Part shown: one piece after another, positions 24,406 to 41,186 of the stretch
Numbering within the stretch: the first letter of the stretch is position 1
How the letters are laid out: each line of letters starts with the position of its first letter
NCBI GenBank assembly: GCA_903901335.1
Contig: CAIUQR010000030.1
Location: 1 to 64,000, forward strand
Direction: 5' to 3'
DNA: 64,000 nucleotides
Source of the DNA: an uncultured delta proteobacterium
Lineage (GTDB): Bacteria; Desulfobacterota; Desulfobulbia; Desulfobulbales; Desulfocapsaceae
Translations under genes and position numbers: made by a program
Notes under the pieces: generated by a model
Told to the model about the DNA's origin: nothing
Database searches by the model: none
What the model saw: the letters and a program-made list of their open reading frames with translations, nothing else

Positions 24406-25494
24406 TTACCCGTGCAAGGCCGACAGAACCGCTGCGGCCACGTCATCCTGATCGGTTTGGCTAAGGTACGGATGCATTGGCAGGCTGATAACTTTTTGGG
24501 CCAAGTGTTCAGCAACCCTGAAGCTCAGATGTCCCTGATTCATGGCCGGCTGCTTATTCAACGGAATCGGATAGTGAACAGCTGTGGGAATATTCTTTTC
24601 CGTTAATGCCTTCTGTACTTTTTCTCTGTCTTCCACCTGTATCGTGTATTGCGCATAGACGCTTGTATTGCAGGCCTCGATATATGGTGTCACGATCCCG
24701 TCGGATGCCAGAAGGTTCGAGTATCTCTCTCCGATTTCGGCACGTTTCTTAATTTCTCCAGCAAAGATATCCAACTTGGCTAGAAGGACGGCAGCCTGGA
24801 GGGTGTCGAGCCTGCCGTTGATTCCTACCCTGGCGTGATGATAGCGTTTATCCTGTCCGTGAACGCTGATTTCCCGCATAATATTAGCCAATTCATCATT
24901 GTCCGTAAAGCAGGCGCCTGCGTCGCCGTAGGCACCGAGCGGCTTGGACGGGAAAAAGGATGTACAGCCGATGGTCGTCAGCGAGCACGATTTTTTCCCT
25001 TTATAGGTTGCCCCGAAACTCTGCGCCCCATCCTCAATGACCGGAAGATTGTGTCTTACAGCGATTGCATTAATCGCATCAAAATCACAGCACTGGCCAT
25101 AGAGGCTCACCGGCATGATCGCTTTTGTTTTTGGCGTAATGGCTGCCTCGATAAGGCCCGGATCAAGATTGTAGGTTTTTGGATCTACATCGATAAAGAC
25201 AGGCGTTGCTCCTAACAGCGCAATCGTCTCGCCCGTCGCAATAAAGGTGAACGGTGTAGTAATGATTTCGTCTCCGGCACCAATACCAAGGGCCATCATC
25301 GCAATCAGAAGGGCGTCCGTGCCGGAGGAGACGCCAAGACAATGCTTCACTCCGGTGAATTCGGCCAATTTAGGCTCAAGTTCCTTGACTTCCGGACCTA
25401 AAATGTACTGACCGTGTTCTAAAACTTTTTTGATTCGTGCATCTATATCCGCCTCAATACCTTTGTATTGGGACTTCAAGTCAATAAAATTCAT
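24406..25494 (-). CDS. wbpE: UDP-2-acetamido-2-deoxy-ribo-hexuluronate aminotransferase
   Basis: The 362-residue PLP enzyme is very close to Pseudomonas WbpE: HGQYILGPEVKELEPKLAEF, TYNLDPGLIEAAITPKTKAI, PVSLYGQCCDFDAINAIA, the lysine segment CTSFFPSKPLGAYGDAGACF and AVHYPIPLNKQPAMNQG. WbpE transaminates a UDP-3-keto-GlcNAc-uronate on the route to diacetamido uronic acids of O-antigens. AAGAGGA precedes the ATG. WbpA, WbpB and WbpD partners are not in the window. It is convergent with the polysaccharide operon but presumably serves it; it could also be co-transcribed with the radical SAM gene 112 bp upstream. Confidence 0.88.
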   Translation of the reverse strand: MNFIDLKSQYKGIEADIDARIKKVLEHGQYILGPEVKELEPKLAEFTGVKHCLGVSSGTDALLIAMMALGIGAGDEIITTPFTFIATGETIALLGATPVFIDVDPKTYNLDPGLIEAAITPKTKAIMPVSLYGQCCDFDAINAIAVRHNLPVIEDGAQSFGATYKGKKSCSLTTIGCTSFFPSKPLGAYGDAGACFTDNDELANIMREISVHGQDKRYHHARVGINGRLDTLQAAVLLAKLDIFAGEIKKRAEIGERYSNLLASDGIVTPYIEACNTSVYAQYTIQVEDREKVQKALTEKNIPTAVHYPIPLNKQPAMNQGHLSFRVAEHLAQKVISLPMHPYLSQTDQDDVAAAVLSALHG

Positions 25495-25605: not shown

Positions 25606-27030
25606 CTATACATTTCTTTCCCCCTGAGAGTGCTGCCGTTTCAGGCGCAGAAGGGTCCTGAACATCGGCTCTGTCTGGTTTCTCTCTTTTCTCTCCCGGA
25701 GTGCGGCCTGTAAAAGTTCCGGCGGCGGCCTGGACTCCGTCAGCCGGATACAGTTCGGGCGGTTTGCAATCTCCCTGGTGATAATATTGGCCAGTTCAGC
25801 GTCACCAAGCTGCGGCGATACATAAAAAAGCGGTGCGAGCAGAGATGTCTCCGGCCGGATGAGTCCTTCAGCGATTGCCAGTTCCGCAAGCGGCGTCCGT
25901 GGATAGATCCGCAGCCCCTCAGTGATATGAACCATATCGTCCCGGCCAATATACTCATCAATAAAGGCGAAACTCTCCAGCAGTGTCTCTTCGGTCTCTC
26001 CGGGGCCGCCGAAGATGAAGAACCACATGGTGGGCATCTCATGTTCACGGATTAGCCGTGCCGCCTTCCGGAGATGTTCGATGGTGAAGTTCTTGTGATA
26101 ATTTACAAGCATCACCGGGCTTGCGGAGTCAGGTGTGGAATCGATCTGGGCAAAGCCGGCCCGTTTCATCAGGTCAAGGAGATTGCCGCTGATATTAACC
26201 GGATTCATTCCCATGGTCCGCAGGGTAACCGAGAGTTTGCGCCGGATGATCTCCTCGCAGATGGCCTCGGCATGGCCCGGCGGGTCGTTGAAGGTCGAGT
26301 CGACAAACTCGAAAACCAGGCCCGGATTCCGGATTCTGTCATGTGTGGTCTCAATCTCATTGACCACATGGGCCACCGTCCGCTTGCGAAACGTCCTTCC
26401 TTCCAGGATCGGGTACGAGCAGTAGATGCAGCGGTGGCCGCAGCCGCGCTTGGTCTGGATCGGATAGGCCCCCCGTTCGCTGTAGGGGGCGTAATTCAAC
26501 AGGGTGTCGAGATCGGAAGAAAAGGGTTTGTCCAGCGGCAGGGAAGACGTGGGATTGACCCCCGCATTTTCCCCGGCCAGGACTACGCCTGCTATCTGCG
26601 ATGGTTCACCACCCTGTTCAAGGGCCTGCAGCAGCAGCGGCAAGGCCTCCTCGGCCTCGCCGGTGATCCCGAAATCGGCACCGAAGACCTTCATCAGCTC
26701 ATCGGGAAAAATCGTGAAACCGGAACCGCCAAGAATAAGTTTGGCTCTGCTCTCCTTAATCGGGGCAAGGTAGGTCTCCAGGATACCGGGGAGATAGGAG
26801 TGGGTGGAACCCTTCACCATATCATCGATGTTGCGGATGGAAAGCCCAATATAGTCAGGCTGGAACTCCTGCAGATGCCGGCGCACCTCGTCGCTTGACA
26901 GTAAATAGCCATCCAGGAATTCGACCTGGTAGGCATCGCGCAGTCTCTGGTAGAGCAGGGCAAGTCCGAGCGGCGGGACGGGATACGGCGTGGTCGCCTG
27001 GTTCGTCGACAGGAGCAGTATCTTTTTCAT
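25606..27030 (-). CDS. B12-binding-domain radical SAM protein
   Basis: The 474-residue protein has a cobalamin-binding-like Rossmann domain (residues about 1-150, with VPPLGLALLYQRL and LILGGSGFTIFPDELM) and a radical SAM core whose iron-sulfur cysteines are C197, C201 and C204 in RGCGHRCIYCSYP. IFGGPGETEETLLESFAFI is the GGE-like core block. The usual cobalamin-ligand motif DxHxxG is not seen, so cobalamin may bind without a histidine ligand, or not at all. It lies 2 bp after the ACP gene and may act on an ACP-bound or lipid substrate. Confidence 0.88.
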   Translation of the reverse strand: MKKILLLSTNQATTPYPVPPLGLALLYQRLRDAYQVEFLDGYLLSSDEVRRHLQEFQPDYIGLSIRNIDDMVKGSTHSYLPGILETYLAPIKESRAKLILGGSGFTIFPDELMKVFGADFGITGEAEEALPLLLQALEQGGEPSQIAGVVLAGENAGVNPTSSLPLDKPFSSDLDTLLNYAPYSERGAYPIQTKRGCGHRCIYCSYPILEGRTFRKRTVAHVVNEIETTHDRIRNPGLVFEFVDSTFNDPPGHAEAICEEIIRRKLSVTLRTMGMNPVNISGNLLDLMKRAGFAQIDSTPDSASPVMLVNYHKNFTIEHLRKAARLIREHEMPTMWFFIFGGPGETEETLLESFAFIDEYIGRDDMVHITEGLRIYPRTPLAELAIAEGLIRPETSLLAPLFYVSPQLGDAELANIITREIANRPNCIRLTESRPPPELLQAALRERKERNQTEPMFRTLLRLKRQHSQGERNV

Positions 27031-27032
27031 CT

Positions 27033-27299
27033 CTATGGATGTTGCTGGGACTCGATAAATTCCGCCATCGAGTTGACCGTCTGCAGGATGGTCAGGGCAT
27101 GGCTCTGGTCGTTGATGCTCACGCCGAACTTCTTCTGTATCCCGATGACCAGTTCGAGACCGTCCAGCGAATCGAGGTTCAGGAGTTTACTCTCGAAGAT
27201 CATCTCGTTGTCATCGATCTGTTCGGGTTGGACCTCGGCAATCTTCAGGGTCTCGATGATCATTTTTTTTATCTGCAGTCTAAGCTCTTGGTCTGACAT
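27033..27299 (-). CDS. Acyl carrier protein
   Basis: The 88-residue protein has the helix II signature LLNLDSLDGLELVIGIQKKF, with S44 as the phosphopantetheine site. It is acidic and of usual ACP size. ATG 27299 is preferred; a GTG nine bases earlier is also possible. It sits between the BtrH-like acyltransferase gene and a radical SAM gene, a layout which suggests that the BtrH-like protein takes its acyl group from this carrier. Confidence 0.9.
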   Translation of the reverse strand: MSDQELRLQIKKMIIETLKIAEVQPEQIDDNEMIFESKLLNLDSLDGLELVIGIQKKFGVSINDQSHALTILQTVNSMAEFIESQQHP

Positions 27300-27314
27300 G
27301 GTTCTCACTTGTTC

Positions 27315-28319
27315 TTATAATTTTTTCGCAGTTTCTGACAGGCGTTCGAAAATATCCTTTTCCACATGCGCCCTCTGATGGATCATACATTTCAGTTCCT
27401 GCAGACGAACGGGCCCCAGATCCCGTTCTTTGCCGATTCGGGCGACGAAGAGCGATATCTGCCGCCATTCGTCACCGTTGGCCATCATCTCTTTGGCCAG
27501 GGCCTCCAGGCTTTTGTTGCCGAGCAGGGTGCCCGCTTCTTTCAGGAACGAGGCGTAGAGATAGCGGAAACCGCCGCCGCCGGTCCCCCGGTCTTCAAGG
27601 ATAACATGGATCATCATGATCTCATGGGAGAGATGATCCGTATTCCGGCAGAGTTTCGGCCAGGAGGTCACCTTGTCGCCGAAATATCTGATGCCGCGGA
27701 TCCCCATGAAGGGCAGCGGGACGCGCAGCATGTAAAAGCAGGTCTGTTTAATTCCGGCCTTGATCGCGCTTTGCATGTCCACGTCAGGCTTGACGCCGGT
27801 GACGTGGAACTGAAACCCGGCCGGTGCAAAAGGGCCTTTCACCGACCGGGCAATCTTCAGGGTGCGTTCATCCAGCCGGGCGATCTTCGGGTAGTAGACA
27901 TCACTTATCAGGTAGTCTGCCCCGTCTTTGCCGATGACATTGACGAAATGGGCGTTGAAGTGGGCCCTGGCGTAGGCCGGGAGGTACTGCATATAGAAAA
28001 AGTCCACCTGCACGGCCACCGGAATCCCCTGATCGAGAAGGCTGTCCAGGGCAGCCATGGCCTTGTCCGGGGTCCTGTTTTTCTGACAGCTGATCTGAAC
28101 ACCGAGTCGTTTCTGCACGGCTGTACGGATCTTGCCCGGCTGATTGCGGAGGACAAAGGTCGGAAAATCCAGGGTGGGGAGCTTGAAATACCCAAAAAAA
28201 AGGCCGCCGGAGATACCGAAAACCATGGGTTCGGAGATGGCGAGGCCCGCATGATTCAGCTGGGCTGTAACGGCGCCTGATTCGCAATGCGCAGCCATTT
28301 TATGGGTAAAGGCGATCAT
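27315..28319 (-). CDS. BtrH-like acyltransferase (BtrH_N plus DUF4872 type)
   Basis: The 334-residue protein begins with the BtrH N-terminal signature: HCESGAVTAQLNHAG at residues 11-25 then SEPMVFGISGGLFFGYF. In butirosin synthesis BtrH moves an acyl group from an acyl carrier protein to an amine; the Cys after His is the probable nucleophile of this papain-like family. VQVDFFYMQYLP and AHFVNVIGKDGADYLISD complete the fold. The start overlaps the regulator's stop by 4 bp, and an ACP gene follows 16 bp downstream. The acceptor is unknown. Confidence 0.85.
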   Translation of the reverse strand: MIAFTHKMAAHCESGAVTAQLNHAGLAISEPMVFGISGGLFFGYFKLPTLDFPTFVLRNQPGKIRTAVQKRLGVQISCQKNRTPDKAMAALDSLLDQGIPVAVQVDFFYMQYLPAYARAHFNAHFVNVIGKDGADYLISDVYYPKIARLDERTLKIARSVKGPFAPAGFQFHVTGVKPDVDMQSAIKAGIKQTCFYMLRVPLPFMGIRGIRYFGDKVTSWPKLCRNTDHLSHEIMMIHVILEDRGTGGGGFRYLYASFLKEAGTLLGNKSLEALAKEMMANGDEWRQISLFVARIGKERDLGPVRLQELKCMIHQRAHVEKDIFERLSETAKKL

Positions 28320-28801
28320 GTCCTTAACTCGCTGGCCTGCCTGTCCCGAACGGAAATGCGGCTGATGATAACCGAGGGCAGGGCGGTCTGTTCATTATGG
28401 ATGGCAAGACCCTCCTCCTCACAGAGGATGACCTGAAAGAGCTGAGCCACCGGGATGCCGAAAACGGTTGCATAGCGTTCAAGCAGGGCGACACTGGTGC
28501 GGGAAAACCCCTTCGGTGTCATCTGGAAGCGCAGTTTCCTCCGGCTGATGCCGACCCGGCAGGCCAAGTCTCCCTCGCCGATCTCGACCAGATCTTTATA
28601 GTAGGCTAAAGGAGAAATTTTTCCGGCCTTCAGCTCCTCCAGGCGTATGGTTTGCAGTCTGGCCTTCTTGGCAAAAAAATCATCAAGATAGTTTTTGACC
28701 ATATACGAGCCGGTCTGAACCGGGCCATAGGTCTGATCATCTTTTTCAATGTATAAAATGAGCTGGTGGGAACTCTCCACCTTGCTGTCTTCTTCTTTCA
28801 C
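28316..28801 (-). CDS. Helix-turn-helix (XRE-like) regulator
   Basis: The 161-residue protein carries a central HTH-like stretch, LVEIGEGDLACRVGISRRKL followed by TSVALLERYATVFGIPVAQLF, typical of XRE-type DNA-binding proteins. Flanks are not recognised. It starts at GTG 28801 with no clear ribosome-binding site, so an internal start is possible. It is the first gene of the minus-strand BtrH/ACP/radical SAM operon and is divergent from the ABC exporter, the usual position for a local regulator. Confidence 0.7.
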   Translation of the reverse strand: MKEEDSKVESSHQLILYIEKDDQTYGPVQTGSYMVKNYLDDFFAKKARLQTIRLEELKAGKISPLAYYKDLVEIGEGDLACRVGISRRKLRFQMTPKGFSRTSVALLERYATVFGIPVAQLFQVILCEEEGLAIHNEQTALPSVIISRISVRDRQASELRT

Positions 28802-28960
28802 GGCTGTACCTGGATTGTATCTGCAGTTGGGTGAAGTATGGGGTAAAGCATAATGGAATTGTCTTCCTTTTCAACCAAATAGCCGTTACAATAAATGCTC
28901 GATTTAAAAAAACAAGGGAAATTTCCTGATAATGAATCTTTTCAGTGGTGTCATGAGTCC

Positions 28961-29746
28961 ATGAGCGCTGTTGCCTCACATTCTGATCGAGCCCGGTCCG
29001 CTACCATTGCCATTGAGGTTGACTCACTGGTGAAGATATACAAAAATGCGACGGATCCCGCTCTGAATAATTTTTCGTTGTCGGTTGAAGGCGGCAGCTT
29101 TTTTGGCCTGCTCGGCCCGAACGGCGCCGGGAAGACGACGGCGCTCTCCATTATTACCGGGCTGCTGGCGCCGGACAGCGGCAGCGTCACCATCCTCGGC
29201 CTGCGGCTCGATCGGCACCTCCGGCAGATTCAGACCAAGATCGGACTGGTTCCCCAGGATCTTGCCCTCTATGAGAACCTGACCGCGACTGAAAATCTCG
29301 TCTTCTTCGGGAGACTGTATGGCCTTGCCGGAAGAGAACTCCAGACCGAGATAGATCGATGCCTGGAGTTCACCCAGCTGCAGGAGCAGCGCAACAGGCG
29401 GGTATCGACCTTCTCGGGCGGGATGAAAAGACGTCTCAATCTCTCCGCCGGGATGCTGTACCAGCCGGATATCCTCTTTCTCGATGAGCCGACGGTGGGG
29501 ATCGATGCCCAGTCCCGGCAACTCATCCACGAGCGGCTCACGGACTTGAACCGGCAGGGGACGACGCTTATCTATACAACCCATTATATGGAAGAGGCCC
29601 AGGAACTCTGCTCCCATGTCGGGATAATTGACGACGGCAGGATCATCCAGCAGGGAAGGACCATGGATCTGACCCGGCAGCAGGGTTTTAACAACCTGAA
29701 CGATCTGTTCTTCTCCATTACAGGCAAGAAGTTGCGCGATGTTTAA
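28961..29746 (+). CDS. ABC transporter ATP-binding subunit (ABC-2 type exporter)
   Basis: The 261-residue ATPase has Walker A LGPNGAGKTTALS, Q-loop VPQDLALYENLTATENL, signature FSGGMKRRLNLSAGML, Walker B ILFLDEPTVGID and the switch His in IYTTHYMEEA. This is the DrrA/CcmA-like family that drives export of drugs or lipids with an ABC-2 permease. ATG 28961 is chosen as nearest to the domain; an ATG at 28895 in the same frame is possible. A TACAAT hexamer just before 28895 could be a -10 box, which would favour the later start. Confidence 0.92.
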   Translation: MSAVASHSDRARSATIAIEVDSLVKIYKNATDPALNNFSLSVEGGSFFGLLGPNGAGKTTALSIITGLLAPDSGSVTILGLRLDRHLRQIQTKIGLVPQDLALYENLTATENLVFFGRLYGLAGRELQTEIDRCLEFTQLQEQRNRRVSTFSGGMKRRLNLSAGMLYQPDILFLDEPTVGIDAQSRQLIHERLTDLNRQGTTLIYTTHYMEEAQELCSHVGIIDDGRIIQQGRTMDLTRQQGFNNLNDLFFSITGKKLRDV

Positions 29747-31037
29747 ATTCTTTAATCATATCATAGCCTCCACGTGGAAAGAGACACTTCTTCTCCGGCG
29801 CGATAAGGCAGGCCTTCTGGTCCTGTTTTTCATGCCGGCAGCGCTCGTCATCATCATCACTCTGGTCCAGGAAAATATCATGGAACTGAGCGGTGAAAAG
29901 AAAAGCGCGATTCTCTTTCTGGACCAGGACCATGGGCAGATCGCGACCCGTCTGCGGCAGTCCCTGCACGATTCGAAGAGGGTTACGCTGGTTGAACTCG
30001 ACGGTGCGACGGTGCGCCGGGATGAAGCGATAGCGCGGGTGCGGAGGGGTGATTATCAGGTTGGGGTTATAATTCCGGAGGGGACCTCGACAAGGCTTGA
30101 GGCCCGGATAGAGACGCTTTTTGCGGCCGATGCGCCTTCGGGAAAGGCCTCTGACGGGGATCTTATCCTGGTCTATTTTGATCCCGGGGTGCTGCCTGGT
30201 TTTCGGTCCGGAATTCTTGCGGCCTTACAGCTCGCGACCTTCAACATCGAGATGGAGTTGAAGGTCAAGGCCCTGCAGGAAAACGTTGCCGTCCTACTGG
30301 CCGGTCAGCAGATGATGATGGGGGGGGGCGGGAAAAAACCGGACCTGGGGCTTACCCATCTGCAGGAGAACCTTCTGACGATTTCAGAAGAGCAGGCAGG
30401 GTCGAAAAGGGAAGAGAGCGCGCCGAGCGCGGTCCAGCACAATATCCCGGCATGGGCCCTGTTCGGCCTCTTTTTTACCTGTATACCGCTGGCCGGATCG
30501 CTCCTGGTTGAACGGAATTCGGGGATCTGGATCCGTCTGATGACCATGCCGATCTCGTCCGTTTCGTTACTTATCGGCAAGATAATCGGCTATGTCGGGG
30601 TCTGTTTCAGCCAGATTCTGCTGATCGTCCTGATCGGCCATTTTCTCTTTCCTACCTTAGGCTTACCCGCGTTTACGATCAATGGGCACCTGGTGCCGCT
30701 GGTTGTTATCTCGCTCTGCTGCAGCCTGGCTGCCTGCGGCTATGGTGTGCTTCTGGGAAGTGTGTGCACCAGTCTCGAGCAGGCCTCGATGTTCGGCTCG
30801 ATCTCCATTGTCATTACCGCAGCTCTCGGAGGGGTCCTGGTGCCGCCCTATGCGATGCCGGGTGTGATGCAAAGGATCTCCGGCTTTTCGCCCCTGAACT
30901 GGGGGCTTTCTGCCTATCAGGATGTCCTGCTGCGCGGCTCCTCGATTGCACAGATATCCGGCGATCTCTGCCGCCTGCTGGCCTTCTTTCTGGTCCTGCT
31001 GCTGATCTCCTGGTGGCTGAACCGCAGGTCGCAATAA
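29739..31037 (+). CDS. ABC-2 type exporter permease
   Basis: The 432-residue membrane protein has one N-terminal membrane helix (about residues 22-42), a large soluble domain of about 190 residues, then five or six C-terminal helices, with FGSISIVITAALGGVLVPPYAMP near the end. This is the ABC2_membrane_3 plan (YhhJ-like). It overlaps the ATPase gene by 8 bp. It likely exports the product of the neighbouring acyl-carrier-based genes; that link rests only on position. Confidence 0.88.
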   Translation: MFKFFNHIIASTWKETLLLRRDKAGLLVLFFMPAALVIIITLVQENIMELSGEKKSAILFLDQDHGQIATRLRQSLHDSKRVTLVELDGATVRRDEAIARVRRGDYQVGVIIPEGTSTRLEARIETLFAADAPSGKASDGDLILVYFDPGVLPGFRSGILAALQLATFNIEMELKVKALQENVAVLLAGQQMMMGGGGKKPDLGLTHLQENLLTISEEQAGSKREESAPSAVQHNIPAWALFGLFFTCIPLAGSLLVERNSGIWIRLMTMPISSVSLLIGKIIGYVGVCFSQILLIVLIGHFLFPTLGLPAFTINGHLVPLVVISLCCSLAACGYGVLLGSVCTSLEQASMFGSISIVITAALGGVLVPPYAMPGVMQRISGFSPLNWGLSAYQDVLLRGSSIAQISGDLCRLLAFFLVLLLISWWLNRRSQ

Positions 31038-31366: not shown

Positions 31367-31419
31367 AATTTGAATCCTCTTAGTTATAACTATGGCATTG
31401 GTTGGTTGTTTTTTCCCTG

Positions 31420-31530
31420 ATTCAACAAGTTGATAGTCGGGTCATAATACCGTGTCCGGTAATATGAAAATCCGGTTGCATCGGGCTTCCAGATTCTCCT
31501 GTCTTTAATCGCAGTTCGCGATAGGCACGG
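31420..31530 (-). pseudogene. Fragment of an RHS-repeat protein core
   Basis: The minus-strand translation contains TGFSYYRTRYYDPTINLL, which resembles the conserved end of RHS/YD-repeat cores (GLYYYRARYYDP). Only about 35 residues look related and no repeat array or toxin tip is present. It is a small relic, not a working gene. The rest of 31370-31604 shows nothing else. Confidence 0.45.
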
Positions 31531-31604
31531 ATTGCGTGTCTCAGGTTGCGGGGGGAGCAAATAGTCTAAAAAACTCCAGCTATCGACCTGAGCAGTTACC
31601 ACAA

Positions 31605-32945
31605 TTATATAGTATCCGTCCCCCTCCTGATCAGCCAGAGATCGCTGACCTTGCGGTAAAACTCCGGCAGCGGCAGCGTGGTCCTGGTGACGGCGTTGAA
31701 CATATTGTATTTTGCCAGGTCCTGGTCGACAATGTCGGCCTGGGCCTCCCGGTAGAAAGAGGTTCCGGGAAACGGGGTCAGGATTGTATACCCGGCAAAG
31801 GCCACTCGATGCCGGGCGGCATAATCGGCCAGGGCGCGGAAATCCTCGTCGTTATAGGAAGGCGGGATGATGTAATTACCGCGGAGCATGATCCCGTTAT
31901 CGTGAAATATTTTTATGGCTTTGTCGATCTGCTCCGCCTGCAGCTGCTTGTTATAGCGCTTCAGCTCGTCCTGCCGGATGGATTCAAACCCGGCGATGAC
32001 CACCTTCAGGCCGCCTGCCGCCAGTTTTTCAATAAGTTCGGGGTTGTCCGCCGCGGTATCGACCCGAATGTCCATGATAAAGGTCTTTTTGATCCCTTCT
32101 TCTTCGATCCGGTCGAAAAGTCGACGGGCAAAGTCCAGGTTGACCAAGGTGTTGGCATCCGAGAACCGGACCACATCATACCCATCCAGGCCTTTCAGCT
32201 CTTCGATTACCGATTCCACTTCACGCTGGAAATAGCGGCCGCCAAATTGCGGCCAGATCGAGCAGAATGAACAGGAGTACGGGCAGCCAAGGGATGTGAA
32301 GACATAGGTGGACGGCCCGGGGGCCTTGCCGACCCGGTAGGTCGAACGCCAGCGCTCAAGAAGGCTCCTGTCCGGCAAGATGAAATCCTTGCCGGCCGGG
32401 TCGAGGATTGGAGTGGGCGCCGGTGTGGCGATAAGCTCAGTGCCCCGGCGGACAATGATGCCGCCGATATGGTCAAGGCTTTTTTTTATTTCAATTGCCT
32501 CCACAATCTGCCGGAAGCTCCCGGCGCCGGGACCGATGCAGACGATATCCACGCCTGGATCACGAAAATGTTCGGGGCAGAGGGTGGCGTGCAGACCGCC
32601 CGCGACGGTGACGATATCTGGATTGAAGGCCTTGACGGTGCGCAGGATCTCAAGGCCCAGTGGAAACTCGGAGGCAATAAAGGTGACACCGACGATTCCC
32701 GGTTTTGTCCGCTCCAGAAATTCCAGGACCATCTGTGCAGGAGGCGGACTGTCGGGGATGAGATCATACTCTCCTTTCATTTCCAGCAGGCTGACATCGT
32801 GATCTTTCAGGTTGGCGGCAATGGTCAGAAGTCCCAGCGGTGGGCCGATCAGCTTCTTATGGATGAACTGCTTGGCCTCTTCGCAGGCATGGGTGAGGAT
32901 GCCGTTATGGGGCGAGCGGGGCGGGTTGATCAGGGCAATATGCAT
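31605..32945 (-). CDS. B12-binding-domain radical SAM protein, last gene of the lipid operon
   Basis: The 446-residue protein has an N-terminal cobalamin-binding-like domain (GPPLGLLTIAANL, IVGVTFIASEFPLGLEIL, VAGGLHATLCPEHF) and a radical SAM core with C221, C225 and C228 in LGCPYSCSFCSI. NYIIPPSYNDEDFRALADYA is the late core block. Relatives include hopanoid- and tetrapyrrole-modifying enzymes, which work on lipids or large rings. It starts 4 bp after the crotonase stop, so it belongs to the twelve-gene operon. C-methylation or C-C bond formation on an acyl chain is possible; unproven. Confidence 0.9.
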   Translation of the reverse strand: MHIALINPPRSPHNGILTHACEEAKQFIHKKLIGPPLGLLTIAANLKDHDVSLLEMKGEYDLIPDSPPPAQMVLEFLERTKPGIVGVTFIASEFPLGLEILRTVKAFNPDIVTVAGGLHATLCPEHFRDPGVDIVCIGPGAGSFRQIVEAIEIKKSLDHIGGIIVRRGTELIATPAPTPILDPAGKDFILPDRSLLERWRSTYRVGKAPGPSTYVFTSLGCPYSCSFCSIWPQFGGRYFQREVESVIEELKGLDGYDVVRFSDANTLVNLDFARRLFDRIEEEGIKKTFIMDIRVDTAADNPELIEKLAAGGLKVVIAGFESIRQDELKRYNKQLQAEQIDKAIKIFHDNGIMLRGNYIIPPSYNDEDFRALADYAARHRVAFAGYTILTPFPGTSFYREAQADIVDQDLAKYNMFNAVTRTTLPLPEFYRKVSDLWLIRRGTDTI

Positions 32946-32949
32946 GTCT

Positions 32950-33582
32950 TCAGGATTTCCGGGAAGGAAAATGTTGATGATGTTTTTCGATCAGCCTGCG
33001 GGCGGTGTCCAGCAGGTCGTTTTTGTCGACAATCAGGTCAACGATATCGAGGTCCAGGGCGTCGTCAGCCAGAAGGTTTTTGCCGGACAGGATGAGCTCA
33101 ATGGTCTTGCCCAAGCCTGCAAGCCGGGGCAGGCGGATGGTCCCGCCGCAGCCCGGCATCAGGCCAAAACCTGTCTCCGGCAGGGAAAACAGCGCATTTT
33201 TGGTGCAGATCCGATAATGACAGCTCAGGGCCAGTTCCATACCGCTGCCGAGACAACATCCCTGGATTGCAGCCACGACCGGGAAAGGCATCTGGGCGAG
33301 TTGCTGAAACGAGCCAAGCGAGCGGTTCGTCGCCTCCAAAATGGCCGCTGCATCATCCTGCCCGAGCCGGTCCGTCAATTCTTCAATATCTGCTCCCGAC
33401 GAAAAATGCCTGCCCTGACCGGAGATGACAAGGCCTCTGGTTTCCGGATACCGGTCGATATCCGCGATGATCCGGGAAAGCTCCTCGAAGAAGAGGCGAT
33501 CAGTCTTGTTCGCCGGTGGCGAGCAGAGCTCCAGATGCAGGATATCGTCCGGATGATGCAGGATGACTCTTTTCTGCTGCAC
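32950..33582 (-). CDS. Enoyl-CoA hydratase/isomerase family protein (crotonase 1)
   Basis: The 210-residue crotonase keeps both catalytic glutamates: E116 in GSGMELALSC and E136 in SLPETGFGLMPG; oxyanion-hole segments are GRHFSSGADIEEL and QGCCLGSG. It is shorter than the usual 260 residues at the C-terminus. GTG 33582 is taken as the start because AGGAGG lies 6 nt upstream and because it begins one base after the preceding stop; a far upstream ATG would lie inside the AcpS-like gene. Likely step: hydration/dehydration of a 3-hydroxyacyl or 2-enoyl thioester. Confidence 0.88.
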   Translation of the reverse strand: MQQKRVILHHPDDILHLELCSPPANKTDRLFFEELSRIIADIDRYPETRGLVISGQGRHFSSGADIEELTDRLGQDDAAAILEATNRSLGSFQQLAQMPFPVVAAIQGCCLGSGMELALSCHYRICTKNALFSLPETGFGLMPGCGGTIRLPRLAGLGKTIELILSGKNLLADDALDLDIVDLIVDKNDLLDTARRLIEKHHQHFPSRKS

Positions 33583-33583
33583 C

Positions 33584-33946
33584 TCAATCCTCCTGCAGTA
33601 CGGCAAGGCCATAGGCCGTGCTTCTGGTATGGGAGATGGACAGAAAAAGAATATTTGGAGAAGAGAGGCCTGGGCGATCAGGTAAAAAGAGAAGCACAGG
33701 GCGGTCATTCGGTCGTCGGCCCAGCACAATGTCCTTTTCGCTGAGGCCGCCGTCCTTTCCCTTGGTGAGAAGGTGCAGGACAGCTCGTTTAAGGGCCAGG
33801 CTGCCGACGGTGGAACGGATATGCCGGGTGCTCAGTTCTGCCTGCTCCTCGGCAGAGAAATAGGTGCCCAGGAGGGGATCGTGTTGCACCTCTTTAATAT
33901 CCAGATTCACGAGTACCGATCTGATGGCCTTTGAGTCGCTCTTCAT
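33584..33946 (-). CDS. AcpS-like phosphopantetheinyl transferase, degenerate
   Basis: The 120-residue protein fits the AcpS fold: an N-terminal NLDIKEV (D16) in place of GVDIVEI, YFSAEEQAEL, an LALKRAVLHLL helix, and a clear C-terminal LSISHTRSTAYGLAV. The helix should read KEA; here the metal-binding Glu is Arg54. The family's Mg-binding site is thus incomplete. AcpS works as a trimer with active sites at subunit interfaces, so it may act as a partner of the complete enzyme at 40508-40894, or be a non-catalytic carrier-binding protein. It overlaps crotonase 2 by 4 bp. Confidence 0.72.
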   Translation of the reverse strand: MKSDSKAIRSVLVNLDIKEVQHDPLLGTYFSAEEQAELSTRHIRSTVGSLALKRAVLHLLTKGKDGGLSEKDIVLGRRPNDRPVLLFLPDRPGLSSPNILFLSISHTRSTAYGLAVLQED

Positions 33947-34689
33947 GGTTTGACGCTCTTCTGCTCTGATTCCATGGTGACCACATCCTGCGCCAGTTCG
34001 CAGAAAAGCCGGGTCTCTTCGGCCAGCGCCTCTTCCATCGGCATCCGCCTGCCGTTATGGATGGAGCGCATCACGGCCCGGATCAGCTTCGGCGGGTGGC
34101 TCGCAGTGAGCGCTTCCAGAAAACGTATCGCCTCTTCCTCGATCTTCTTTGCCGGGGAGACGAAATCAACGAGTCCCATTTGCAGGGCCTCGGCCGCGCC
34201 GATCATCCGGCCGCTGAGGATAAGATCGATCAGGTGCCTGGGGAGCAGCTGCCGGGAGGCGAGGGTCCCTCCCATGCCCGGCATCAGGGTATGGCTGCAT
34301 TCGGGAAAACCGAACATCGCGGTCTTGGCGGCAAAGCGGAAGTGGCAGGCCAGTGCAATCTCAAGGCCGCCGCCCAGGCAGCTGCCGGAGATCATTGCCG
34401 CCACCGGAATCGGGGCAAAGGAGATGAGCTGTAAAAGTTCTTTTGCACTTTGCAGGGCATCCTGCAGGGCACTGGCATCGCGGAAAGAACCGGCAAAGCT
34501 CTCAGGATCGGCGCCGCTGCAGAAATGCCGTCCCTCGCCGCGCAGGATAACGGCCTTCAGCTCGCGATTATCGAGAAAAGAGCGCAATTCCTCCTTTTCC
34601 GCAAAGACGGGATGAACCAGGGCATTCGTGGGCGGATTGACCATGGTTATCCAGCCAGTTGAGCCTGTTGTATGATAGTGAAACCGCAT
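33943..34689 (-). CDS. Enoyl-CoA hydratase/isomerase family protein (crotonase 2)
   Basis: The 248-residue crotonase keeps E110 in GGGLEIALAC and E130 in GFPECSHTLMPG, and the oxyanion segments GRHFCSGADPESF and SGSCLGGG. Crotonases cover hydration, isomerisation and decarboxylation, and the polyketide ECH1/ECH2 pairs of HMG-CoA cassettes are a known example of two crotonases in one cluster; here the HMG-CoA synthase itself is absent. It lies 7 bp after the dehydrogenase gene and overlaps the AcpS-like gene. Confidence 0.88.
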   Translation of the reverse strand: MRFHYHTTGSTGWITMVNPPTNALVHPVFAEKEELRSFLDNRELKAVILRGEGRHFCSGADPESFAGSFRDASALQDALQSAKELLQLISFAPIPVAAMISGSCLGGGLEIALACHFRFAAKTAMFGFPECSHTLMPGMGGTLASRQLLPRHLIDLILSGRMIGAAEALQMGLVDFVSPAKKIEEEAIRFLEALTASHPPKLIRAVMRSIHNGRRMPMEEALAEETRLFCELAQDVVTMESEQKSVKP

Positions 34690-34696: not shown

Positions 34697-35746
34697 TTAA
34701 ACGATTAAAAGATGTTTTTTATTTTTGCCTGTTGTCCCGGCAAAAAGCATACCCGAAAATCCCCTGGCCTGAAAGATCCTTTCGCAGACGATCTGCAGCT
34801 GATCAAGGGTGATGTTTTGTCGCCGGTATGCCTGAAGGCAGGCCTCTTTCAGTGTGTCTCCAAGGTGTTGCTGCAGATTTTGCCGTTCCACTGCGCTCAC
34901 CGTATGGTTCGGCCAGGGCAGGTCGCAGCCGATCATCAGGCCGTCTTTATTCTTCTTTCCCCTTTTGCCGAGGTCTAACAGTCTCTTAAGGCCCGAGATC
35001 AGCAGGTCATGGTCTGCCTGTGCCGTTTTCTCGGCAAGGTTCCGATAGTTGGCAGCGGCAGTATGGATAAGATCAAGACCGATTGCATCCATCATCGACA
35101 GCTGGCCGAGCCCGATCAGGTCCGATTTCGAGGCCTCATCGACGACCTTTGCCGGGATTCCGCCCTGCAGCGCGCCCAGGCAGGCGGCCTGTAAGGGCAG
35201 CAGGAGCCTGTTAATCAGAAAGGCGTTATTCTCGTCCTGCTCAAGGACATCGCAGCTGTTTTCCTGAAAAAATCGGAGACTCTCTCTTCGTCGCTGTTCA
35301 TGGCAGGTTTCAGGGACGATCAGCTCGACACAGGCCGTCAGCTGCACCGGGTAGAAAAAATGGGCGCCCAGGCAGTTGCGGTGGAGGGTCCGGGGCAGCA
35401 GGGAGGAGGAGTTGCTGAAGATCAGGGTCTGCTCCGTGATTAGATGCGAAAGGGATGCCAGCGCCTCTTTTTTTTGGGCTGACGATTCATGGGTTGATTC
35501 AATGATGACATCCGGAAGCGGGATGCCGTCTGCGGCCAAAAGATGACAATCCGCGTCGAACAGACTCTGCCGCTCCGGGAAGAATTTTGCCGTTCTGCGG
35601 CGTATCTTGGCAATCCTTTGCAGAAGTTCCGCCCTTTGTTCCGGGGAGCTGGTGACCCAGTGGACGGAAAGGCCTTTTTCAAGGAAAAAGTCCCCGATAT
35701 TCCATGCCATTTTTCCGGATCCTGCTATTAATACCTTTTGTTTCAA
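34697..35746 (-). CDS. 3-hydroxyacyl-CoA dehydrogenase family protein
   Basis: The 349-residue protein has an NAD-binding start VLIAGSGKMAWNIGDFFL and the family dyad H129 (LGAHFFYPVQLTACVELI) with E141; SNSSSLLPRTLH and INRLLLPLQAACLGAL match the hinge and C-terminal domain. It starts at TTG 35746, overlapping the FabD-like stop as TTGA. In beta-oxidation it oxidises L-3-hydroxyacyl-CoA; in a synthesis operon lacking FabG it may run in reverse and reduce a 3-ketoacyl thioester. Whether it takes CoA or ACP substrates cannot be told. Confidence 0.87.
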   Translation of the reverse strand: MKQKVLIAGSGKMAWNIGDFFLEKGLSVHWVTSSPEQRAELLQRIAKIRRRTAKFFPERQSLFDADCHLLAADGIPLPDVIIESTHESSAQKKEALASLSHLITEQTLIFSNSSSLLPRTLHRNCLGAHFFYPVQLTACVELIVPETCHEQRRRESLRFFQENSCDVLEQDENNAFLINRLLLPLQAACLGALQGGIPAKVVDEASKSDLIGLGQLSMMDAIGLDLIHTAAANYRNLAEKTAQADHDLLISGLKRLLDLGKRGKKNKDGLMIGCDLPWPNHTVSAVERQNLQQHLGDTLKEACLQAYRRQNITLDQLQIVCERIFQARGFSGMLFAGTTGKNKKHLLIV

Positions 35747-36678
35747 TAGTTGAGCCGCCGCTTGAGATTTCTGAGGTTATAATGACGGGGTGCGGCATCG
35801 ATAAAGCGGGCGTGCTGGGAAAGAGAAACGCCTGCCCCGCATTCAATCACCGCCTCCACCCCGATCTCCGTCAACTTTTTCAGAACCCCTGGCCAGTGAA
35901 TGGGATGGGAGAGATTCGCCGCTGTCATCTCGATCAATTCCTCTTCGGTGCGTATAAGGCTGTGATCCAGTGCCGACAGCACCGGGCAGATCGGCCGCTG
36001 CCAGTGGAGCGATTCGAGAAAGTTCCGCAGTTCGTGTGAGGCCTCCGCCATGAAGAGCGGGCTGTGAAAGGGGATATCGACAGGTAAGGGGATGGTCTTG
36101 ACGGCGCCGGCCCCTTCGGCCCAGGCAAGCAGGCGGTCCGTCTCCTTTTTATAGCCGACATAGACCCCGGAGCTGGCATTGTTCAGGTTGGCCAGATTCA
36201 CCGATGTCAGCCCTTTTTCGGTAATGACCTCGGCCACCTCATCATGATCGAGACCGATGATAACCACAACACCGAAACGTTTTTCCGGATTGAACTTCCG
36301 GCCGAGCCGATGGGCCTTTGTAATTATGGCCAGGCCGTCGGGAAATGAGATTGCCCCCGCTGCCGCCAGGGCCGCATAGATGCCGAGACTATGGCCGCCC
36401 ACCAGCTTCGGGACGAGGCCATATTCGCCAAAAACCCGGAAGGTGCCGCAGGCAAACACATAGGCAAAGACCTCGTGGCTGAACTGGTCACCCTCAAAGG
36501 TCGCGTTCTGTAAAAGCGAGGCAGCAAGATCGACACCTGCCATCTCTGAGCCTTGCCGGATAAAGGGCTCGATGACGGTCCGGTATTTCCGGTAAAACTG
36601 GCCTTCCCTGCCGAAGGGCTTTACCCCGATACCGGGGAAGAGGAAGACCCATTCGCGGGTGTCGTCAAAGAGCGTCAT
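35743..36678 (-). CDS. FabD-like (malonyl-)acyltransferase
   Basis: The 311-residue protein carries the acyltransferase nucleophile S97 in GGHSLGIYAALAAAG and the general base H205 in PFHSPLF, with ECGAGVSLSQH near the end. In FabD an Arg in a RGxxM segment selects malonyl; here the segment reads AHRLGRKF, so extender specificity is unclear. It overlaps the KAS III gene by 14 bp. It would load an ACP in the same operon. Confidence 0.88.
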   Translation of the reverse strand: MTLFDDTREWVFLFPGIGVKPFGREGQFYRKYRTVIEPFIRQGSEMAGVDLAASLLQNATFEGDQFSHEVFAYVFACGTFRVFGEYGLVPKLVGGHSLGIYAALAAAGAISFPDGLAIITKAHRLGRKFNPEKRFGVVVIIGLDHDEVAEVITEKGLTSVNLANLNNASSGVYVGYKKETDRLLAWAEGAGAVKTIPLPVDIPFHSPLFMAEASHELRNFLESLHWQRPICPVLSALDHSLIRTEEELIEMTAANLSHPIHWPGVLKKLTEIGVEAVIECGAGVSLSQHARFIDAAPRHYNLRNLKRRLNY

Positions 36679-37780
36679 AGGTCAGAACATACCCCGCCTG
36701 CATAAATTTGCTCACCTCGGTGACAAAGCTTACGATACAGTCACCGGGGTTGAATCGCTCTTCCCGGATGATCTTATCCAGGCAGATGAAGGCCATCGGT
36801 GGCCCGCAGTAGCCCAGCTGGTCCAGTTTGGAGTAAAAGATCGAATCATGCAGTCCGAGCTGCAGGAACTCCTCTTTGATCGAGTCGACGATATGCTTAG
36901 TGGGCAGGTTGATCTGAAAGTGGCGAACGGCATCGAGGGAAACTGAACTCCTAGCCATCATGCGCTGAAACCCCTTCAGGAAAATGGAGCCGCCCTCCTC
37001 CTGGAAGTCGCTGGTGGAGAGGGCGTTTCTGAACCTCTGGCGCAGGTGATGGTAGCCCAGCTCGAACTCCTCTTTCGGGTTCAGCCAGAGGGCGGGGCGG
37101 AGGTTGAACATCAACGATGGCCGCTTCCCTCCGATGGATTCGATAAAAGTGGTTTCGACCCGCAGATCCTGGGGGTGCCTTTTTTCGGAGGACAGCACCA
37201 GCGCCCCCGCCCCGTCAGAGAGGAACCAGCGCAGGAACAGGGACTCCTTGTCGGCCAGCGGCTGGTTGTAATACTCGGCCCGGAGCTCGGAAGAGGCTAT
37301 ATTCGCGGACAGGACCAAGGCATTGCGATTCTGGCCGGACTTGAGCAGCTGATGGCCGAGATAGAGTGCCTTGTAGGCCGAGGTGCAGTTGGCATGGATC
37401 GAAACCTCGTCGCAGGTTTCGATGCCAAGCGCCTCCTGGATCCGGACCGAGGCGGTGGGCATCTGGTCCTGGTGGGCCGAGCCGTAACAGATCAGATCGA
37501 TATCCGAAGGCGTGAGCCCGGCGGCCTTGAGGGCCTTTTTGGCAGCGGCGACTGCCATGGTGATATTGTCCTCGGTAAAGATCCTGGTCTTGGGATCGAT
37601 GGCATAGTGGACATAGTGAATATCGAGGAGTTCGCGCATCACCGGGTGGGTCCGCTCGATCCATTTCCGGATCTTTTCCGGAGCCTGATCAAGCTCTCCC
37701 AGGATCTTTGGAATATCATCGAAGGCAACAGGTTTGCCGGGAAGATAACTGCCGCTGCCGCAGATATAGACCGCATTCAT
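36665..37780 (-). CDS. KAS III (FabH-like) protein with altered catalytic triad
   Basis: The 371-residue thiolase-fold protein has the nucleophile C132 in SIHANCTSAYKALYLG. The FabH motif HQAN reads HFQIN (287-291), with Phe288 where the catalytic His is expected, and the Asn of YGNTSAAS is replaced: QLGYCGPPMA with Tyr324. Condensing enzymes of this family need Cys-His-Asn. Similar changes occur in KAS III homologues that act as acyltransferases or starter-selecting enzymes. His296 (TKHIVDS) could replace the base. It overlaps KAS II by 4 bp (ATGA). Not certain whether it condenses, primes or transfers. Confidence 0.88.
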   Translation of the reverse strand: MNAVYICGSGSYLPGKPVAFDDIPKILGELDQAPEKIRKWIERTHPVMRELLDIHYVHYAIDPKTRIFTEDNITMAVAAAKKALKAAGLTPSDIDLICYGSAHQDQMPTASVRIQEALGIETCDEVSIHANCTSAYKALYLGHQLLKSGQNRNALVLSANIASSELRAEYYNQPLADKESLFLRWFLSDGAGALVLSSEKRHPQDLRVETTFIESIGGKRPSLMFNLRPALWLNPKEEFELGYHHLRQRFRNALSTSDFQEEGGSIFLKGFQRMMARSSVSLDAVRHFQINLPTKHIVDSIKEEFLQLGLHDSIFYSKLDQLGYCGPPMAFICLDKIIREERFNPGDCIVSFVTEVSKFMQAGYVLTYDAL

Positions 37781-39030
37781 GGCCTTTCCTCTCCTTCTCG
37801 GCGTAAATGGTCATATGCCGAGAAGATATTCACCCCATTGTGGCCGCCGAAGGCAAAGGAGTTGGACATCACATGGCGCAGGTCTTTTTCCCGGGCCTGC
37901 AGCGGTACATAATCCAGATCGAGCCTGGGATCGGGGTGGGTCAGGTTGATGGTCGGCGGGATGATACCTTCGTACAACGCCTTGCAGGAAATAACAGCTT
38001 CGACCCCGCCGCTGCCTGCAAGACAGTGGCCGGTCATGGATTTTGTCGAGGAGACCGGGATCTCGTGAGCCCTGTCGGCAAAAACCGTTTTGATGGCCAG
38101 GGTCTCATAGAGATCGTTCAGGTTCGTCGAGGTGCCGTGGGCATTGATATAATCGATGTCACCGAGGGTAAGTCCGCTCTCCTGCAGCGCCCGCTGCATG
38201 CATCCGGCCATCCCTTTGCCGTCCGGCTCCGGAGAGAGGATGTTGTAAGACTCGGTGTAAAATCCCGGATAATGCATTTGCGCATAGATCCGGGCCTCCC
38301 GTCTACGGGCATGATCCAGGGATTCCAGCACCAGGATCCCTCCTCCCTCCCCGATCACGAAACCGGAACGTTTCGCATCGAAGGGCCTGGAGGCGGTTGC
38401 CGGGTCGCCGGTTGCCTCGGCCAGGGCTAGGAGGTCGCAGAATCCTTCGATGTCGGGATAATTGAGTGAAGAATCAACGGAGCCGCAGAGAACCACGTCG
38501 CATTGTCCGGAACGGATGAGGCCGTAAGCCGCTCCCATCGCATACACCCCGGAGGAACAGGCGGTACCGATGATGAAAGACGGACCGTGCAGTTTCCAGT
38601 TCAGCGAGATCCAGGAAACGGGTGCATTGGGCATGTTTTTCAGGATACGCATCTCCTCTTTCCCGACTTCGCCTGGGACATAAGAGGTTCCGGTGGAGCC
38701 CAGAATCACCCCGATCCGGCTGCGGTCAAGCCGTTCCATATCAAGCTGCGCATCGGCGATGGCCATTTCGGCAGTGAGCAGGCCGATCTGGGTGGAGCGG
38801 GTCATCTGGCTGCGTTTTCGTTTTTTGATATGGCTCTGAAAGAGGGCATCCGCCGCCTGTGGCAATTCCACGCCGAAGGGGCAGGAGAGCCGTGCCGGGT
38901 CCAGGTTCCTGAAAGGCGCCGTGACACTTTTGCCTGCGATCAGCCCCTGCCAGGAGTCGGCAAGGTTGACGCCGAGACCGGTCATCAGGCCGAGCCCGGT
39001 TATAACAAGAGGTGACGGGTTGGTCTTCAT
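37777..39030 (-). CDS. Beta-ketoacyl-ACP synthase II (FabF-like)
   Basis: The 417-residue enzyme has the full KAS II triad: C158 in GTACSSGVYAMG, H298 in INAHGTSTN and H335 in STKSMTGHCLAGSGG. It condenses malonyl-ACP with an acyl chain. The frame runs on upstream for 128 codons, but that part lies inside the flavoprotein gene and reads as nonsense, so ATG 39030 (ATGA overlap with the preceding stop) is the start. No chain-length factor partner is adjacent, so it probably works as a homodimer. Confidence 0.93.
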   Translation of the reverse strand: MKTNPSPLVITGLGLMTGLGVNLADSWQGLIAGKSVTAPFRNLDPARLSCPFGVELPQAADALFQSHIKKRKRSQMTRSTQIGLLTAEMAIADAQLDMERLDRSRIGVILGSTGTSYVPGEVGKEEMRILKNMPNAPVSWISLNWKLHGPSFIIGTACSSGVYAMGAAYGLIRSGQCDVVLCGSVDSSLNYPDIEGFCDLLALAEATGDPATASRPFDAKRSGFVIGEGGGILVLESLDHARRREARIYAQMHYPGFYTESYNILSPEPDGKGMAGCMQRALQESGLTLGDIDYINAHGTSTNLNDLYETLAIKTVFADRAHEIPVSSTKSMTGHCLAGSGGVEAVISCKALYEGIIPPTINLTHPDPRLDLDYVPLQAREKDLRHVMSNSFAFGGHNGVNIFSAYDHLRREGEERP

Positions 39031-40505
39031 TGTATCCGCTCCGCGGCCAGGATGCCCGACTTCACGCTCTGCATGAAACCGCCGAGCCTGTTGGTCCAGG
39101 CGGAGCCCATCAGCACGTTGGTAACCGGCATCTTCGCTGCCTTGAGTATGTGTCTGTGCGTGCCGGCCGTGCAATTCAGCCCCATGATCGCCCCCAGAGG
39201 GTTGCCGGTGTACCTGGCCATGGTCCGTGGGGTAGCCAGATCCGAGATCACGATATGCTCCCGGAGTCCGGGATATCTTGCGGCAGCCATTGCCAGGAGC
39301 TCCCGGCTGATCCTTTCCTTCTCCCTGTGATACTGAGCCTCGTCCACTGCAAGCCACATCTCCGGGGCGGTCCCACCGATAAGACTCAAGGTATGGCCTC
39401 CCTGTGCGATGCATTCCGGATCCGAATTCCCAGGCGCGGTGATGGAAAAACCCAAGGGTTCGATCCTGCTCGTCTGCTTATCAAAACATCCATCAATATC
39501 CGCATCGGGAAAGACCATGGCGATATGGCAATCCATCCCGAGTTTTTTTGGCGAACAGTCGAGTCCCAGATTGAGGGCGACAACCGAGATCGAAGGCTTC
39601 AATGTCTCCAGATTCCGTCTATACCCCGCAGTAAAAGAGGCCTGTCCGATGAGATTATTTACCATATCAGGGAGATTATTACCCCCGATAATCGCATCAC
39701 AGGGCAGCTGCCGTCCATCTGAGACGCGGACGGCAACGGCCTTTTTTCGTTCAATGATAATCCTCTTGGCAGCCGTGTTGGTGAGAAGCGTTCCCCCCAG
39801 TTGGAGAAAGCGCTCCCTCAGACAATCCGTCAGCTTCTGGCCGCCGCCGGCGATGGTGTACATCCCGTTTTTCATCAGCAGAAAGAACATCATCATAAAA
39901 TTCACGGTCGGAAAATCCCGCATCGGGATACCCATGAAGACGGCCGGCTGGAACAGGATGGCCATGAGCCGTTCATCGTGGAAAAAACGTTGAAGATAGG
40001 TCCTGGTCGGCAGCATTGAATGCTGTAAGAACGCCGGGATTTTCGGAATAAAAGGCGGGATGGAACGGTAGCCGGAAACCCTGTGGTCAAAGAGACGGGC
40101 ATAAACAGTAGCATATTTTTCCAGGTCATGGCGAAAAAGCCGAATCCCTTTTTCCTCGGCCGGGAATTCCAGGGTGAGGGATTCGAGAAGTGTGTCATAG
40201 TCGCCCGGCATCTGAAAGAGAGAGTCGCCGAGATGAACCCGGAATCCTTGGCGCAGGCGGATAAACCGAACGGAATCGGAGAGTCCCAGGGTCTCGATCA
40301 TAGCGGCGAATTCCTGGCCCGGTCCGCCGGCCGGAACCACATGCAGGGCGAGATCGAAGGTAAATTTTTGCCTGCGAAACGAGACGGCATACCCTCCGAC
40401 CCGGGGTTCTTTTTCGAGAAGGGTTACACAATGTCCCCGCTGCAGGAGTCTAACTCCACTTGCTAGACCGCCGAGTCCCGCGCCTATCACAACCACGTTC
40501 GCCAT
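39027..40505 (-). CDS. Phytoene desaturase / retinol saturase-like FAD oxidoreductase
   Basis: The 492-residue flavoprotein starts with the dinucleotide-binding turn VVVIGAGLGGLASGVRLLQR and EKEPRVGGYAVSFRRQ, and has GGGQKLTDCLRERFLQLGG and the C-terminal MGSAWTNRLGGFMQSVKSG typical of CrtI, CrtISO and RetSat. These enzymes desaturate, isomerise or saturate conjugated polyenes. In this operon the substrate would be a polyene acyl chain, not a C40 carotenoid, as no crtB-like gene is near. ATG 40505 is chosen, 2 bp after the transferase stop. Confidence 0.9.
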   Translation of the reverse strand: MANVVVIGAGLGGLASGVRLLQRGHCVTLLEKEPRVGGYAVSFRRQKFTFDLALHVVPAGGPGQEFAAMIETLGLSDSVRFIRLRQGFRVHLGDSLFQMPGDYDTLLESLTLEFPAEEKGIRLFRHDLEKYATVYARLFDHRVSGYRSIPPFIPKIPAFLQHSMLPTRTYLQRFFHDERLMAILFQPAVFMGIPMRDFPTVNFMMMFFLLMKNGMYTIAGGGQKLTDCLRERFLQLGGTLLTNTAAKRIIIERKKAVAVRVSDGRQLPCDAIIGGNNLPDMVNNLIGQASFTAGYRRNLETLKPSISVVALNLGLDCSPKKLGMDCHIAMVFPDADIDGCFDKQTSRIEPLGFSITAPGNSDPECIAQGGHTLSLIGGTAPEMWLAVDEAQYHREKERISRELLAMAAARYPGLREHIVISDLATPRTMARYTGNPLGAIMGLNCTAGTHRHILKAAKMPVTNVLMGSAWTNRLGGFMQSVKSGILAAERIQ

Positions 40506-40507
40506 CG

Positions 40508-40894: not shown

Positions 40895-41186
40895 TATTGT
40901 TGCCGTGCTGAATGATGGCCTTGGTCAGGCTGATCACCTGGCCCAGGGTATTGGCGGGTTTTTCCATCAGATGATGCCCAAGTGTTTTCAGCTCAATGGT
41001 AAGCTCATACCGTTTTCTGACTAGTTCAAGAAGCGATAAGAGCATAAGGGAATCACCTTCAAGTTCTTCGATGATGTCGGTGGTATCACGAAGGTCATCC
41101 AGGTCCACATCACATTCCTCAGAAAAATAGCTATAGACCATCTTTCTGATTTCATTCTCTATTTCAGGTGTTATTGATCGGGTCAT
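40875..41186 (-). CDS. Acyl carrier protein of the lipid operon
   Basis: The 103-residue protein has an ACP-like helical pattern with EELEGDSLMLLSLLELVRKR and S46 as the prosthetic-group site. It is longer than a fatty-acid ACP and rather divergent, as usual for dedicated carriers. ATG 41186 is preferred; a TTG at 41207 would add seven basic residues. The PPTase gene begins inside its 3' end. It is the second ACP gene of the 25-43 kb region. Confidence 0.83.
   Translation of the reverse strand: MTRSITPEIENEIRKMVYSYFSEECDVDLDDLRDTTDIIEELEGDSLMLLSLLELVRKRYELTIELKTLGHHLMEKPANTLGQVISLTKAIIQHGNNIVNVQL

Follow-up and report, generated by a model that had tools for sequence, protein, structure and literature searches.

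Within a 64,000-nucleotide stretch of DNA from an uncultured delta proteobacterium of the order Desulfobulbales (contig CAIUQR010000030.1; hereafter the window), we analysed the genes at positions 25606-31037, which encode a BtrH-like acyltransferase (DarH), an acyl carrier protein (ACP), a radical SAM enzyme, a helix-turn-helix (HTH) protein and an ABC-2 exporter. We put at about 0.68 the probability that these genes form the transfer and export part of a single acyl pathway, dedicated and independent of oxygen, with its synthesis genes in the adjoining operon. The cluster is common to anaerobes of several phyla, and it probably serves to make an unsaturated fatty chain, attach this chain to a partner and export the product. 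Since the host genome carries dsrA (568 bits), the host is a dissimilatory sulfite/sulfate metaboliser and the cluster is probably one of strict anaerobes. The analysis defines an 18-gene unit for a lipid-like anaerobe product, with 16 genes of a multi-phylum type and what appears to be a native exporter pair, and it supplies a testable acyltransferase-ACP pair as well as a KAS III clade whose active-site signature is unusual.

Linkage of the acyl operon with the transfer and export genes

The original prediction had described the genes under study as a second module, lying less than 600 bp from a twelve-gene acyl operon. All its open reading frames (ORFs) and domains were confirmed: on the reverse strand, rSAM_A (25606-27030), ACP_A (27033-27308), DarH (27315-28319) and a DarG-family protein (28316-28801), and, divergent from them on the forward strand, an ABC transporter ATPase (28895-29746, with 28961 as a possible translation start) and an ABC-2 permease (29739-31037), which exceed the cut-offs of PF00005 and PF12698, respectively. 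The likely ATG start of ACP_A at 27299 agrees with the limits first proposed for it (27033-27299). The permease stop (31037) is separated by 567 bp from the end of the acyl operon (31605), in which we indeed counted twelve genes, from 42941 down to 31605, with the radical SAM gene rSAM_C first and rSAM_B last.

By scanning genomes with the window DarH, we found 21 related loci at 47-58% identity in Bacteroidales, other Bacteroidetes, Fibrobacter, Victivallales, Kiritimatiellia, Calditrichaceae and Hydrogenedentota. First, DarG and DarH are adjacent in all 21 loci, and an ACP gene directly follows DarH in 17 of the 20 untruncated ones, so this grouping is not due to chance. Second, a Victivallales locus (L083) carries on one strand ACP_B, a phosphopantetheinyl transferase (PPTase), CrtI, FabF, the DarB-like KAS III, a FabD-like acyltransferase (AT), the 3-hydroxyacyl dehydrogenase and both ABC genes, followed by DarG, DarH, ACP_A, rSAM_A, the crotonase ECH2, a short PPTase, the crotonase ECH1 and rSAM_B; a few unrelated ORFs lie among these genes, and rSAM_C is found just upstream of the operon. 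Third, in a Kiritimatiellia metagenome-assembled genome, one contig running from rSAM_C to rSAM_B (L112) and another covering ABC to rSAM_A (L085) both end inside rSAM_B, where they overlap over 120 bp at 96.7% identity, an indication that both parts are contiguous in this genome too. Smaller linkages recur as well: the AcpS-type PPTase beside ACP_B (L083, L111, L112), the short AcpS-like gene between ECH2 and ECH1 (L083, L113), which is conserved in L112 as well, and rSAM_B homologues in L083, L112 and L116-L120, in addition to the canonical DarB clusters of the window's order. Fourth, the KAS III type of the window was detected in 14 of the 21 genomes with this DarH type (54-70% identity), compared with none of the 294 other genomes in the class of one Bacteroidales genome (Bacteroidia) and 4 of the 394 genomes in the window's phylum.

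Some observations weigh against a single system. The co-occurrence tests draw on related genomes, and their p-values (Fisher, 1e-19 against 0/294 and 8e-18 against 4/394) are therefore only indicative. In the Bacteroidales genomes, the KAS III locus is found away from the DarH cassette, on another contig or in another place, and the cassette includes an additional sulfotransferase, so that different lineages may make different products. Also, three genomes (G435, G576 and G596) carry a similar FabF-KAS III-ECH-AT-dehydrogenase set near which neither DarH nor an ABC-2 permease is found, which suggests that the synthesis part is able to stand alone. Taking the Victivallales operon, the Kiritimatiellia overlap and the co-occurrence together, we nevertheless conclude from gene order and conservation that the acyl operon and the DarH/exporter genes are one system. 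The two gene sets thus belong together as had been proposed, but as parts of one cluster and not as a first and second module; their expected co-occurrence across genomes was found in 14 of 21 cases, with Bacteroidales holding cassette and KAS III locus apart. The cluster is a variant of DarH-type acyl transfer and export clusters, and more coherent than originally proposed.

Other gene combinations were seen around the relatives. In Bacteroidales (L079-L098) the sulfotransferase follows the DarH-ACP pair, with PF13469 in L079 and also in a Calditrichaceae locus (L094), and an O-methyltransferase (L080) or a FlxY ligase (L081) lies near the pair; the conjugate may be sulfated in Bacteroidales. 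The loci of G435, G576 and G596 (L068-L073), which belong to the window's phylum, encode FabF, a KAS III with a Cys-Asn-Tyr (C-N-Y) active site, ECH, PPTase, ACP, a second FabF, a thioesterase, AT and a dehydrogenase, some FabF-type sequences lacking the catalytic Cys and resembling a ketosynthase and chain-length-factor pair. In a further genome (G356; L074, 16732-19001), a KAS III-like gene comes directly after an rSAM_A homologue, and other cluster genes are absent from the neighbourhood; the two may form a minimal pair.

The DarH acyltransferase and the adjoining carrier protein

DarH matches PF14399 (BtrH_N; 140.9 bits, 3.8e-41) and PF16169 (DUF4872; 146.1 bits, 1.1e-42) and marginally passes the NCBIfam model NF053550 (301.2 bits for a cut-off of 300). 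Sequence searches of DarH and DarG against the PDB returned no useful match, and structure prediction was therefore needed. The AlphaFold model of DarH (mean predicted local distance difference test score, pLDDT, 89.5) matches AziU3, CtaG and CcbD along roughly 300 residues with Z scores of 21.9-23.7 (Foldseek/VIA), all three being papain-fold enzymes from carrier-protein-dependent pathways. In addition, H11-C12-E13, N122, H124 and D140 are invariant in 41/41 sequences, and the Cys-His-Asp order agrees with the CtaG variants C11A, H128A and D144N named in PDB titles. CtaG has been described as a transferase that takes the acyl group from the carrier protein CtaH to another substrate (PMC6772006). 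Because of its papain-like fold and invariant triad (C12-H124-D140), the predicted role of DarH as a carrier-protein-dependent acyl transferase is well supported by the model. ACP_A, a PF00550 protein with a DSL serine (Ser47, invariant in 32/32), lends indirect support through its adjacency to a predicted use by DarH of a carrier-protein-bound acyl group, and rSAM_A adjoins the DarH-ACP pair in L083 and L085. DarH is thus like BtrH, CcbD, CtaG and AziU3 in its whole-chain fold, its triad and its adjoining dedicated carrier protein gene, but differs from them in sequence (12-16% identity) and in its acyl donor, which is likely a fatty or polyene chain.

The original prediction had the acyl group moving from a carrier protein to an amine. 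The fold and the triad of DarH fit the first half of this claim; the amine as acceptor is not supported in the same way, given that flexirubin-type relatives make an ester. BtrH itself is an ACP:aminoglycoside acyltransferase (PMC10318531), and a DegT/StrS aminotransferase gene (24406-25494) lies 111 bp after rSAM_A on the same strand, so we considered that DarH could N-acylate an amino sugar made by this enzyme, which would tie the cluster to the upstream glycan operon. However, no related locus has a DegT homologue, and the glycan-type region (positions 1-24300) has a GC content of 45.7% compared to 55-56% in the acyl cluster, which makes this link very unlikely; for want of conservation of the DegT gene in any relative, it was rejected.

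The acyl operon and its resemblance to known cluster types

The acyl operon, all on the reverse strand, would supply the chain that DarH transfers. From its distal end, it encodes rSAM_B (31605-32945; B12-binding and HpnR-like in family scans), ECH1 (32950-33729; start uncertain, as the ORF overlaps the next gene), a short and possibly degenerate AcpS-like protein (33584-33946), ECH2 (33943-34689), the 3-hydroxyacyl dehydrogenase (34697-35746; PF02737/PF00725, His129/Glu141 conserved), which we propose to be the ketoreductase, the AT (35743-36678; Ser97/His205 conserved), the DarB-like KAS III (36665-37780), a FabF-type ketosynthase (37777-39030; complete C-H-H triad), a CrtI-like FAD enzyme assigned by family scans as desaturase- or isomerase-like (39027-40580), an AcpS-type PPTase (40508-40894; assigned from its sequence motifs GCGVD and KEAVFKALG), ACP_B (40875-41207; Ser53 invariant) and the B12-binding rSAM_C with DUF4070 (41406-42941; family scans and a motif read from the sequence), whose Kiritimatiellia homologue in L112 reaches up to 659 bits. 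The operon thus holds two short AcpS-like genes; the one at 33584-33946, likened to AcpS by reading its sequence, has KRA in place of the usual KEA motif and no Pfam match. ECH1 and ECH2, both crotonase-fold hydratases/dehydratases, keep both catalytic Glu, and by alignment key residues are likewise kept in FabF, AT, the dehydrogenase, both ACPs, rSAM_A and rSAM_B. No enoyl reductase was found among the cluster genes, so that a ketosynthase, a reductase and dehydratases acting together point to a polyene acyl chain as the most likely output.

The KAS III-like enzyme has StlD/DarB (5gk0) as its best PDB match (E 2.7e-16), with which it has in common the KAS III fold family and the catalytic Cys (Cys132). 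However, Asn291 and Tyr324 stand where StlD/DarB enzymes have the catalytic His and Asn, as do 14/14 DarB of the order, and this C-N-Y signature is found in all 16 KAS III-like sequences (the window and 15 relatives). The related ketosynthase PpyS has been modelled with a Cys-His-Asn triad (PMC4578411). Since C-N-Y replaces C-H-N, ordinary condensation by this enzyme is unlikely, and loading or shuttling of an acyl group is a better guess.

These residues bear on whether the window holds a dialkylresorcinol (DAR)/flexirubin-type cluster, in which two acyl chains would be closed into a ring by the DarB-like enzyme and a polyene acid would be esterified onto this ring by DarH. The DarG-DarH-ABC cassette of such clusters (NF053536, NF053550; PMC3949708) is matched by the window in gene order, domains and permease lineage. 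Canonical loci of the order read DarG-DarH-ABC-ABC2-(ACP)-DarB with a true DarB, close to the Azoarcus dar cluster with its BtrH-like gene, ABC pair, ACP and DarB (PMC3949708), and a FlxY-family ligase (717 bits) adjoins DarH in L081. In flexirubin, an ester bond links an aryl-polyene acid to a dialkylresorcinol, and the enzyme that joins the two is so far a proposal (PMC3992019), which leaves DarH as a candidate there too. Against membership, the KAS III-like enzyme scores 127 with the DarB model NF005293 (cut-off 450), no protein of the window genome passes the DarB cut-off, and DarH forms a separate clade (support 100/100). A further difference from this cluster type is the window's additional acyl operon, which encodes beta-oxidation-type and B12-radical SAM enzymes.

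Beside DarB, the order's loci have either a flavodoxin-like gene of 303 residues or an rSAM_B homologue. We take the former (L055:12064-12975), which has no NCBIfam match, to be DarA. Among the 103 DarH genomes of the order other than that of the window, 62 have only the rSAM_B homologue, 32 only the DarA-like gene, one has both and eight have neither, and the switch occurs within single genera (g16, g32, g43). This near-exclusion suggests that the rSAM_B-type enzyme replaces DarA in the order's DarB clusters, and hence how anaerobes replace a flavoprotein step. In the window genome rSAM_B is present, whereas with the presumed DarA as query no DarA was found at E 1e-40, the only flavodoxin-like match being 25% identical and on another contig, and none lies near the KAS III-like gene. 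With the catalytic residues of DarB replaced and DarA absent, we rejected membership in the DAR/flexirubin type, which we regard as unlikely.

An equally unlikely origin of the gene set is a ladderane- or polyunsaturated-fatty-acid-type membrane lipid cluster, as in Kuenenia and Desulfotalea, where DarH would put the chain on a lipid headgroup. In the part of the published account available to us (PMC2649909), from whose description alone the Desulfotalea psychrophila cluster was compared, FabF, phytoene-desaturase-like and B12/radical SAM genes occur together in an anaerobe, as in the window, and the best NCBIfam model of the B12-binding rSAM_A (CX3CX2C intact at C197, C201 and C204) is the ladderane-type 'lipid biosynthesis' model TIGR04072. 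However, its score of 319 bits is below the cut-off of 360, as is that of the L083 homologue (327 bits), and the window adds DarH, the exporter, AT, the 3-hydroxyacyl dehydrogenase and two crotonases to the set described in that part of the account. The ladderane label was rejected on the sub-cut-off score of rSAM_A. Ladderane calls outside anammox bacteria are already suspected to be wrong (PMC9902471), and tools naming such clusters 'ladderane' or 'resorcinol' may mislabel them.

Mixed ancestry, probable regulation and proposed pathway

DarH occurs in 104 of the 258 genomes of the window's order, nearly always in the form of a different type, which mostly scores 440-500 bits and does not exceed 42% identity with the window DarH. 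In a DarH tree, the window protein joins the multi-phylum type (support 100/100), in a clade separate from that of the order. In contrast, the window permease falls inside the order's own permeases (100/100), together with those of other DarH clusters, and for the ABC ATPase, the native order's exporters are nearer relatives than the multi-phylum type; by best scores, every tested cluster gene except these two is nearer to the multi-phylum type. These comparisons indicate that in the window a gene set of the multi-phylum type stands beside a native exporter pair. Such an ancestry fits the divergent layout of the window, as most of the other related loci, L083 and L085 among them, have ABC, ABC2 and DarG on one strand. 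The mixture also suggests that the exported compounds of the two cluster types are similar, and relatives of the exporter are found in DarH clusters, not in unrelated ones as would be expected had they been tied to another substrate. Gene transfer between lineages, although not proven, is the simplest reading of the mixture. The original prediction missed the distinct ancestry of the exporter, the lack of DarB catalytic residues in the DarB-like enzyme and a resemblance that falls short of DAR/flexirubin membership.

The DarG-family protein scores below the cut-off of NF053536 (41 bits for 70); it occupies the same position as its relatives, at 21-51% identity. Its AlphaFold model (pLDDT 81) has an XRE-type, lambda-repressor-like HTH at residues 60-124, which aligns with DdrO (Z 10.6, root-mean-square deviation 1.9, 63 aligned residues) and SinR (Z 10.1; VIA-align). 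As a similar HTH fold also occurs inside enzymes, such as HppE, the model makes it only probable that this protein regulates the divergent region.

In the pathway that we propose, the AcpS-type PPTase would activate ACP_B and ACP_A, and the AT would load malonyl. FabF would elongate the chain while the C-N-Y enzyme loads or shuttles the starter acyl group, and the 3-hydroxyacyl dehydrogenase and both crotonases would reduce and dehydrate it into a polyene acyl chain, which the CrtI-like flavoenzyme and the three B12-radical SAM enzymes would tailor. A carrier protein, probably ACP_A, would then hand the acyl group over to Cys12 of DarH, and DarH would pass it on to an acceptor hydroxyl or amine; the ABC-2 pair would export the product. 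Our searches of the open literature found no paper describing this gene set, and nothing on flexirubin with radical SAM enzymes in anaerobes. We suggest, tentatively and with more doubt than confidence, that the cluster represents a so far undescribed way of making an acyl conjugate for export, independent of oxygen and spread over several anaerobe phyla, with a C-N-Y KAS III-like enzyme in place of DarB and a B12-radical SAM enzyme in place of DarA.

Scans for promoters and terminators gave counts near the shuffled expectation (16 against 11.8; 25 against 20.7). Between the exporter and the acyl operon, a short ORF (31390-31602) has an Rhs/YD-like YYRTRYYDP motif and is perhaps a remnant. The glycan-type region upstream contains a gene for a multi-glycosyltransferase protein of 1486 amino acids (10699-15159).

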